A DNA stretch of 37,606 bases from Pseudomonadales bacterium (lineage in GTDB: Bacteria; Pseudomonadota; Gammaproteobacteria; Pseudomonadales; Alcanivoracaceae), in contig JAKSCQ010000106.1 of NCBI GenBank assembly GCA_022360555.1, forward strand, positions 1 through 37,606, read 5' to 3'. The position numbers and the translations under genes are program-made. This document shows, one piece after another, positions 910-4,016 of this stretch (the first letter of the stretch is position 1; every line of letters begins with the position of its first letter). Below the pieces are notes generated by a model. The model was not told where the DNA came from, did no database searches, and was given only the letters and a program-made list of their open reading frames with translations.

Positions 910-1806
910 CTACTCTTCATCGGCATTACCAAGTCGGACGCCATTGAGCCGCTCCAGTTCCAGCAGCAGGCCGCTGTGATCCACCTCGCCGTTACCGCTG
1001 GCCAGCAGTGACCGGTATTGCTCGAACACCCGTTGGCTCAGCGGCAGGGTCAGCCCCTCTTCCCGGGCTTCATCCAGAATCATGCGCAGGTCCTTGAGCT
1101 GAATCCGCGCCGGCGCCCCGGGTTCGAACTGGCGCTGCAGCATGCGCTCTCCGTGCTGTTCGAGAATCTTGCTGCCGGCAAAGCCGCCCAGCAAGGCCTC
1201 GCGCACCTTTTCCGGGCGGGCGCCCCCCTTGGCTGCCAGCAGCAGGGCTTCCGAGACCGCGCCAATGGTGATGCCAACGATGGCCTGGTTGGCCAGCTTG
1301 GCTAACTGGCCGCTGCCCACCGGGCCGATATGAGTCACCGTGCCCATGGGCTGGAACACCTCGGCCGCGCGCACAAAACTGTCGTCACCGCCGCCCACCA
1401 TGATGGACAGGGTGCCGGCTTCCGCGCCCCGGGTGCCACCGGACACCGGCGCATCCAGATAGCCACCGCCCAGCGTTTCCACCTGGGCGGCGTGACGCCG
1501 CGCCACGCCCGGTTCGATGGAACTCATGTCGATCACCAGCGCCCCCTGGCGCAACTGGCCGATGGCGCCGCTCTGGTATAGCACCTGCTCCACCACCGTG
1601 CCGTTTTCCAGCATGGTGATCACCACATCCGCCTCGGCCACGGCATCCGCCGGGCTGGCAACCACACGGGCACGCTCGGCAAAGGCCTGGGCCTTGGTCG
1701 GCGTCCGGTTCCAGAGTGTCAGGGGGAAGCCGGCATCCAGCAGGCGGGTCACCATGGGGGCGCCCATCAGGCCGATGCCGAGAAAACCGATCCTGGGAAG
1801 AGACAT
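910..1806 (-). CDS. NAD(P)-dependent oxidoreductase, 2-hydroxy-3-oxopropionate reductase / 3-hydroxyisobutyrate dehydrogenase family
   Basis: Start placed at MSLPRIGFLGIGLMGAPMV (Rossmann GxGxMG), not the longer ORF start at 1926; contains DAPVSGGTRGAEAGTLSIMVGG. Confidence 0.88.
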   Translation of the reverse strand: MSLPRIGFLGIGLMGAPMVTRLLDAGFPLTLWNRTPTKAQAFAERARVVASPADAVAEADVVITMLENGTVVEQVLYQSGAIGQLRQGALVIDMSSIEPGVARRHAAQVETLGGGYLDAPVSGGTRGAEAGTLSIMVGGGDDSFVRAAEVFQPMGTVTHIGPVGSGQLAKLANQAIVGITIGAVSEALLLAAKGGARPEKVREALLGGFAGSKILEQHGERMLQRQFEPGAPARIQLKDLRMILDEAREEGLTLPLSQRVFEQYRSLLASGNGEVDHSGLLLELERLNGVRLGNADEE

Positions 1807-1827
1807 GAGAATACCGCTTTGATGCCA

Positions 1828-1992
1828 AGAGCCTGTTTGGAGTCTATACGCAACCCGAAGGGCCGGGCTCCTTTTGCCGCCAGCCCGCGTTTGCTCTTGT
1901 TTATGTAGGGCAACTACACAGCACACTCACAAACACGACCTGGCGACAAAATGAACTCCGGCGCGGTTGCGTATAGACTCCAAACAGGCTCT
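1828..1992. repeat. 165-bp palindromic repeat / MITE-like element with 28-bp perfect terminal inverted repeats
   Basis: AGAGCCTGTTTGGAGTCTATACGCAACC at 1828-1855 is exactly reverse-complemented at 1965-1992. The interior arms are also imperfectly complementary (ttttgccgccagcccgcgtttg versus the reverse complement attttgtcgccaggtcgtgtttg). Confidence 0.8.
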
Positions 1993-2084: not shown

Positions 2085-4016
2085 TTACACACCCTTTGCC
2101 TGCGACTGGCTGCCGCGCAACCAGAGCACCACCCCCAAGACCACGGCAATGGCCTGGGCCACCACCCCCTGCACCGTAGGGAAGAGCCCCAGCCACTCGA
2201 TGGTCGGCACACCCAGGTAGAAGGCACTGATCACGCCGGCTTCCTGCAAGGCGGCGATGCCCCGTCCCAGCAACACCACCGACAGTACCAGCAGCACCAG
2301 GCTGGTGACGCGGAAGAACAGGCTCAGCGGCAGCTTCATGCCGATCCGGAAGAACAGGAAGCACACCACCGCCAGGGCGGCCACGGCAGCACCGATGCCA
2401 TAGAACAGGTACGGCTGGGTGGCCGGCGTCACCTGGCTCCACAATGCCTGATAGAACAGGATGGTCTCGAAGATTTCCCGGTACACGGAAATGAAGGAAA
2501 CGAAGGTCAGCACCCAGACCGTCCCGCTGCCCAGTGCACTGTCCACCTTGTTGCGGATGTAGCCCAGCCATTTCTCGCTGTTGCTGTTGCTATGCATCCA
2601 GAAACCCACATAGAAGAGAATCAGTGCAGCCAGCACCCCGGCCACCCCTTCGGTCATTTCCCGGGAAGCGCCGCTGAAGGTGATCAGGGTATTGGCGGCA
2701 TACCAGGTGAGGCCGCCGGCGATCAGTGCGGCGACCCAGCCGAAGTGGATATGTCGGCTGGCACGGGTGGCGTTGGCCTTGCGAGTAAAGGTCAGCAAGG
2801 CGGCCACCACCAGCAATGCCTCCAGGCCTTCGCGGAACAGAATGAAGAAACTGGCCGACAGGGTCGCCGCCGGGCTCAGGCCATCGCCGGACAGGGCCTC
2901 GCTGGCCTCGTACAAGCCGGCCTGGGCGGCGGCCACCTTGTCGCTGACTTCCGCGACATCGCGCTGGCGATCAATGGCTTCGCGCACGGCCATGAAGCGG
3001 GCCTCGGCCCGACGCATCAACTCGCCATCCACGGCGGCGAGCTGTTGCTCGATCATTTCGAACCCGTCCAGGTAAGCGGACAAAGCCGCGGCTTTCGCGG
3101 CATCGCGATCACCGGCGCGATAGGCCGACTCGGCTTCTGCCAGCTTGTCATGGCTCAGCGCAATAAAACGGTTCTTGTTGAACAGGGCCGACGGTTCACT
3201 GCGCAGGTAGCCCAACGCGGCGTAGGCCTGGGGCCCCTGTTCCTTGCGCACATCCTCCGGTGCCTGGGCCACCAGGGTATCCAGCGTCAGCGACGCCTTC
3301 ATGCCGGGCACGGTATTGAAGGCCTGCTCCCCGTCTTCCGCCATGGACGGCGTGACCGCCTTTGCCCCCACATAAAACGCCAGCGCCCAGCGGTCTGCTT
3401 CACTCAGGGTATCGCCGTAGGCCGCCATGCCAGTGCCTTCCACCCCCTGGGTAATGGTGGTGTGCAGGCCCAGCAGTGAGCGGCCGTCATAGCGGGCGAC
3501 CTCAGTGAAATCCGTGGGGGCCGGTTCCAGGGCAGCACCGGCAGGGCCGTCGCCGTGCCCTTCCTTGCCGTGGCAGGCCGCGCACTGACTCTGATACAGC
3601 TCAGCGGCCCGGGCCAGGTCCGGCGCGCTTTTGGGCGACACGGGAATGCCGTAGACCGTCACCAGGGTGGCCCGGATCGATTGCGCCAGTTCCTTGATGC
3701 GCGGCTCACCGGCCTTGTCCTGCACCGCCTGCTGCAAGGCATCCGCCTGGGATTGCAGATCCGCCTTGCCATCCGCGGCCGGCAGCCCGGCCACGCCGTC
3801 GGCCAGCAAGGCAGTGAATTCTTCCATTTCGGCGTATTCTTCCGGGCTGACAACCTCGCCATCGACCACGGCATTGATGTAGTCCGCCCCCACATATTCC
3901 ACCAGTTGCACCAGTGCGGTCTGATTGGCGGCAAAAGCAGGCAGGGAGAAAAGGACAAGCACCATCAGGGCGGAGAAAAGGCGCCCTGAGGGTCCGGCAA
4001 GGGAGAAACGACGCAT
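2085..4016 (-). CDS. FTR1 family iron permease with N-terminal cytochrome c domain
   Basis: 643 aa; signal peptide, CAACHG heme motif, FTR1 RExxE motifs REGLE and REIFE, multiple C-terminal TM segments. Confidence 0.9.
   Translation of the reverse strand: MRRFSLAGPSGRLFSALMVLVLFSLPAFAANQTALVQLVEYVGADYINAVVDGEVVSPEEYAEMEEFTALLADGVAGLPAADGKADLQSQADALQQAVQDKAGEPRIKELAQSIRATLVTVYGIPVSPKSAPDLARAAELYQSQCAACHGKEGHGDGPAGAALEPAPTDFTEVARYDGRSLLGLHTTITQGVEGTGMAAYGDTLSEADRWALAFYVGAKAVTPSMAEDGEQAFNTVPGMKASLTLDTLVAQAPEDVRKEQGPQAYAALGYLRSEPSALFNKNRFIALSHDKLAEAESAYRAGDRDAAKAAALSAYLDGFEMIEQQLAAVDGELMRRAEARFMAVREAIDRQRDVAEVSDKVAAAQAGLYEASEALSGDGLSPAATLSASFFILFREGLEALLVVAALLTFTRKANATRASRHIHFGWVAALIAGGLTWYAANTLITFSGASREMTEGVAGVLAALILFYVGFWMHSNSNSEKWLGYIRNKVDSALGSGTVWVLTFVSFISVYREIFETILFYQALWSQVTPATQPYLFYGIGAAVAALAVVCFLFFRIGMKLPLSLFFRVTSLVLLVLSVVLLGRGIAALQEAGVISAFYLGVPTIEWLGLFPTVQGVVAQAIAVVLGVVLWLRGSQSQAKGV

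Follow-up and report, generated by a model that had tools for sequence, protein, structure and literature searches.

The window analysed here is a stretch of 37,606 nucleotides from a Pseudomonadales bacterium, in which an FTR1 gene on the minus strand ends (3′ end) at 2085, a terminator-like hairpin of FTR1 lies at 2049-2029 and a reductase gene, also on the minus strand, starts with ATG at 1806. Between this 3′ end and hairpin and the reductase start, correctly placed in a preliminary description made from the letters alone, sits a palindrome at 1828-1992. The exact inverted termini reported for it are confirmed: the terminal arms (1828-1855 on the plus strand, AGAGCCTGTTTGGAGTCTATACGCAACC, and 1965-1992 on the minus strand, complementary to the left arm) are 28 nt each, pair at 28/28 positions across a spacing of 109 nt and make up the longest perfect inverted repeat within 300 bp found in the window, against a longest repeat of ≤13 bp at this spacing in shuffled windows. 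The interior is likewise self-complementary and converges on GTAGGGCAACTAC at 1905-1917, close to the centre of the palindrome. On folding, the whole 165 nt gave −95.9 kcal/mol versus −47.2 kcal/mol for dinucleotide shuffles (z −12.4, 0/200). Both the inverted termini and the palindromic interior are far beyond chance. No credible gene is present inside 1828-1992, as had been claimed; the longest reductase ORF (910-1926, minus strand) does open at a GTG inside the palindrome, which is an artefact of the 'first start after a stop' rule. An automatic annotation that takes this GTG as the start could make the reductase protein too long. A promoter was also sought within the element and none was found. 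The FTR1 protein (2085-4016, minus strand) has an N-terminal CxxCH (QCAACHGKEGHGDG) typical of a c-type cytochrome domain.

The copy-number check proposed earlier returned several dispersed copies, with about 4 near-full and at least 5 partial ones in the window's own genome as counted by a single BLAST search against a draft of 339 contigs, and most genomes of the genus also carry it. In the draft (G000), C304, C145, C30, C335 and C52 have partial or divergent copies, one of them about 92 bp long (L012:1462-1553). A pattern scan of 84,980 genomes gave, among the matches listed, Thiodiazotropha, Halomonas, Salinicola, Stutzerimonas, Pseudomonas, Porticoccus, Methylonatrum, Ectothiorhodospiraceae and other hosts; the end matches reached about 110 + 106 in one Thiodiazotropha genome and 46 + 44 in HTCC5015, where a control pattern gave 0-2. 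The scan imposed CAACCCGAAGGGCY...TTTT and required the core CAACCCGAAGGGC, so that the apparent invariance of the core in those loci is partly a matter of selection, whereas the copies from Alcanivoracaceae came from similarity searches. Plasmid-borne copies occur in Azotobacter, Pseudomonas and Halomonas. Copies from Methylonatrum and from a betaproteobacterial and a verrucomicrobial MAG have unrelated ends and arms, yet fold into the same four arms, with lengths of 268-272 bp, the latter two being MAG contigs with possible contamination or misbinning. The element is found in many Gammaproteobacteria and has look-alikes beyond them.

The earlier term 'full-length' has to be corrected, as the copy is shorter than the intact members of its family. 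Intact relatives fall in the tight range of 266-269 bp and consist, in order, of an outer stem, hairpin A, a CC-GAA-GG mini-hairpin (CCCGAAGGG), hairpin B and the outer stem again. Most of them match positions 23-165 of the window copy plus a separate inverted piece of the terminus about 95 bp upstream. The window copy runs ...TATACGCAACC straight into CGAAGGGCC... and hairpin A is absent. In full-length relatives hairpin A is preceded by GCAACC (or GCAGCC) and followed by GCAACC; on comparison with L002, L003 and L027 a sole GCAACC remains here (1850-1855, plus strand), followed by the mini-hairpin core CCCGAAGGG (1854-1862, plus strand), which is invariant in 34/34 aligned relatives, and by hairpin B (1863-1964, plus strand) with GTAGGGCAACTAC as its terminal loop stem. 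Since hairpin A and one GCAACC are missing relative to the full-length relatives, the copy at 1828-1992 (plus strand) is a 165-bp deletion derivative of an element of about 267 bp, and loss of hairpin A by slippage between the GCAACC repeats would be the simplest reading. Other rearranged forms were also seen. Comparable decay occurs in Stutzerimonas, where a site that is otherwise empty keeps a relic, TTAGGGTTTGTTGACCCTACCT. Candidatus Thiodiazotropha endolucinida (G057) has 22-bp palindromes TAGGGCCTGTTAACAGGCCCTA (e.g. C2:55625-55646 and C2:74388-74409), deduced from overlapping end matches, which resemble elements collapsed to both ends via the self-complementary GTTAAC. A 533-bp unit with matching ends in A. 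jadensis T9 (L072:6250-6782) is nearly 2 × 267 bp and is possibly two elements, fused or nested.

The FTR1-reductase locus is present and lacks the element in 16/16 other genomes of the genus. This rules out a leader RNA of the reductase, and with it the case named beforehand as fatal to a mobile element, a single-copy sequence conserved as that leader, as 16 relatives carry the reductase and no element. Searches with joined flanks gave clean filled/empty pairs, CCGGC-TAA-[element]-TAA-AGAGTA vs CCGGCTAAAGAGTA, GTCC-TCA-[element]-TCA-GCTCAT vs GTCCTCAGCTCAT and GGC-TA-[element]-TA-GTC vs GGCTAGTC, so that the empty-site check is answered by sister copies. For copies whose ends are of the GGGYCTGTT type, a single TA is present in GGGCGCGGCTA|GTCTACCGA (L153 vs L245) and the flank consensus of 75 copies is YTA|GGG...CCC|TAR. 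For the GAGCC/GAACC type, to which the window copy belongs, clean duplications are TAA (L029/L254) and TCA (L037/L266), and TTA (L002/L260, L262) and TAA (L034/L271) are obtained if one side has mutated; other pairs (L028, L030, L032 and L003) are messy. The duplication is therefore 3-bp TNA in the window subfamily, a rule resting on these two clean and two nearly clean cases, and 2-bp TA in the GGGYCTGTT subfamily. The window copy's own flanks, CAA (1826-1828) and TAG (1992-1994, both plus strand), are not a clean duplication; going by the TNA of its sister copies they would be target-duplication remnants, of which the left one has probably decayed from TNA, and no close empty site alignable to this copy was found.

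Over 34 full-length elements and 107 pairs, 85.5% of cells are paired, a percentage that leans towards the pair list, which came from folding the same 34 sequences. The covariation score is 0.455 vs 0.148 in shuffles and ≤0.09 when slid, pairs of the outer stem co-vary across relatives, and two-sided changes number 655 vs 211 in shuffles, which is far outside the bias of the pair list. In the structure predicted by RNAalifold itself, 45/62 pairs show compensatory changes. The interior shape is conserved through extensive compensatory change, also where the ends of the copies are unrelated. In several copies the two hairpins can be aligned with each other once hairpin B is reverse-complemented (z to 10.8, L080), so that the element probably arose when one module was duplicated in inverted orientation; in Alcanivorax the same comparison gives a z of about zero. 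CC-GAA-GG is similar to the d(GCGAAGC) mini-hairpin, which is mentioned as extraordinarily stable in aptamer papers (e.g. PMC4686876); that this likeness matters here is speculation.

Such a very strong fold under RNA parameters, directly upstream of the reductase, could point to an RNA element of the FTR1-reductase region (a leader, a terminator or an RNase III site) whose RNA fold is under selection, and MITEs elsewhere do influence neighbouring mRNAs (PMC2229807). We consider this extremely improbable, as the element is dispersed at unrelated loci and absent from the locus in all the congeners, and the fold itself argues the same way: both strands adopt the same layout, mispairs overall are G-T 164 vs A-C 170 with no strand bias, and Rfam has no matching family. 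Because the strands fold alike and G-T and A-C are nearly equal, nothing points overall to one RNA strand being what is kept, and only hairpin A taken alone has a G-T excess (64 vs 18). The evidence favours a DNA over an RNA feature; thus of the long RNA hairpin or DNA cruciform first envisaged, the strong fold stands and its RNA form is the less supported.

The symmetric mispairs also fit a passive origin of the covariation, in which template switching copies arm onto arm (quasi-palindrome correction, a mechanism established for quasi-palindromes) and the MITE is otherwise ordinary. This account addresses the persistence of the shape and does not conflict with a MITE; we regard it as a serious possibility, if somewhat short of an even chance, as it leaves unexplained the constant length, the invariant AACCCGAAGGGC core and the recurrence of one four-armed layout where the arms themselves are unrelated. 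The four-armed DNA shape may persist through selection or through passive correction.

A transposase with matching terminal repeats, the other search proposed at the outset, was found for the TA subfamily and not in the window's genome. In four hosts, the genome or plasmid that carries the element also has IS5-family genes (NF033580 IS5_3, PF13340 + PF01609) flanked by its own ends, the identity between IS and TA-type element being 18/19 in Halomonas M20 (L199), 18/19 in P. ovata F51 (L283), 17/19 in S. stutzeri 95A6 (L205) and 16/19 on the Azotobacter plasmid pAcX50f (L217); in Halomonas and P. ovata the variable part of the ends, GTTGACG or GTTGCCG, agrees as well. The IS427-group ISPsp10 is known to duplicate TA (PMC4133298), and for ISLrh, of the IS1031 subgroup of IS5, the ends are GAACCTGTCTAGTATCT and the 3-bp repeat is TNA (PMC12016507). 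Six end sequences compared with those of ISLrh matched at 14/17 (L028), 13/17 (L033), 12/17 (window), 12-14/17 (L029) and, more weakly, 10/17 (L034) and 7/17 (L007). The window's genome gave no IS5-type transposase at all, and such transposases were matched in only two of 46 Alcanivoracaceae genomes, none with fitting ends and none of the IS1031 type with the same ends, for which reason the window subfamily is named IS1031-like by its ends and its 3-bp TNA target only, and the element is an orphan in this family, its IS either lost or too divergent for the profiles used. An IS630 partner, suggested by the TA target, was rejected, as DDE_3 was present only in Halomonas M20 and its ends do not match. 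An autonomous copy in Thiodiazotropha or HTCC5015 was rejected too: no 0.8-3 kb unit occurs among the end pairs listed, and the PF01609 genes there have other ends. One PF01609 IS of Thiodiazotropha (L198, 1120-2166) has ends TTAAGGAAACTCTGATTAAGT like those of the Methylonatrum elements (TAGGGAAACACTGATTTATT) and is a possible partner of that end type.

The missing DDE partner in Alcanivoracaceae, taken with the conserved four-armed single-strand fold, might suggest movement by another route, for example with a single-strand (Y1/TnpA-REP-like) transposase or an integron-type recombinase acting on the folded strand. We hold this to be very unlikely. The 2- and 3-bp target duplications and the IS5-identical ends are the signature of DDE transposition, and Y1 and integron systems are not known to duplicate their targets. 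Scattered intergenic insertions with target duplications, in place of cassette arrays, do not fit an integron attC site, and both size and target duplications argue against a REP/REPIN.

With the MITE guess of the preliminary description borne out by dispersed copies, empty sites with duplications and IS5-family ISs sharing the ends in several hosts, we conclude that 1828-1992 is very probably a non-autonomous MITE whose ends an IS5-family transposase recognises, or once recognised, in trans. It is short and has no transposase gene (165 bp here, 267 bp typically), is multicopy and dispersed, duplicates its target as judged from sister copies (TAA, TCA, TA) and shares ends with autonomous ISs, at 16-18/19 in the TA subfamily and only in an ISLrh-like manner, at 12/17, in the window subfamily. 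The dispersal, empty sites, sister-copy duplications, matching IS ends in TA-subfamily hosts and missing hairpin are direct observations; trans-mobilisation itself, the identity of the IS for the window subfamily and slippage as the way in which the hairpin was lost are what we infer. An IS1031-like transposase would act on the ends of the window subfamily to give TNA duplications, and an IS427-like one on the related TA-duplicating subfamily. The element would have entered its present site, between the FTR1 terminator and the start of the reductase, in the Alcanivorax lineage, and hairpin A would have been lost afterwards, probably by replication slippage across the hairpin.

MITEs are usually thought to need their ends only. 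We tentatively propose, as a reading we would put at a little under even, a mobile superfamily defined by structure, in which a hairpin module is inverted and duplicated round the invariant AACCCGAAGGGC mini-hairpin at about 267-272 bp, with a fold selected for mobility or survival and refitted with the ends of different IS5 subgroups. Its end types would be GGGYCTGTT, GARCCTG, GGGAAACACTGAT, GGAGGCTGTCGGG and GTGTCGTGTCTCAC, and its hosts Gammaproteobacteria together with one betaproteobacterial and one verrucomicrobial assembly. In the element described here, interior fold and length persist although almost the whole sequence is replaced and the ends differ according to the transposase, and the role of DNA shape in MITE transposition or maintenance becomes a directly testable question. 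A repeat of marine and symbiotic Gammaproteobacteria that can reach about 100 copies in a single genome is also now named; it was not found described in the literature searched, where literal end strings gave unrelated matches only and Alcanivorax repeats gave nothing relevant, nor in Rfam.

Among known systems, RUP of Streptococcus pneumoniae (PMC2229807) is alike in being small, with no ORF, resident-IS ends, TA duplication and many copies; it differs in being 107 bp and mobilised by IS630-Spn1, whereas the element here is about 267 bp, has IS5 partners and is laid out as two large hairpins plus a mini-hairpin. The R0/R2 repeats of P. fluorescens SBW25 (PMC2718517) are also MITE-like with ends identical to a resident IS and hundreds of copies, but are 89 and 110 bp with a simple IR-core-IR build, a distinction drawn from their description and not from sequence. 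CIR of Caulobacter/Brucella (PMC2229807) similarly has two hairpin arms joined by a linker, yet no 5′-3′ end pairing, in contrast to the perfect outer stem and IS-like ends found here. TIMEs of Pseudomonas (Tn3-derived, about 262 bp; PMC4133298) resemble it in size, fold and the idea of trans-mobilisation, but have 38-bp Tn3-type IRs and 5-6-bp repeats and are usually single copy. Finally, ISLrh (PMC12016507), with ends GAACCTGT..ATCT and TNA, and the ISPa67-annotated or IS427-group ISs, with ends GGGTCTGTTG(A/C)C.TTTC and TA, are full ISs with a transposase, and have the terminal 17-19 bp alone in common with the element.
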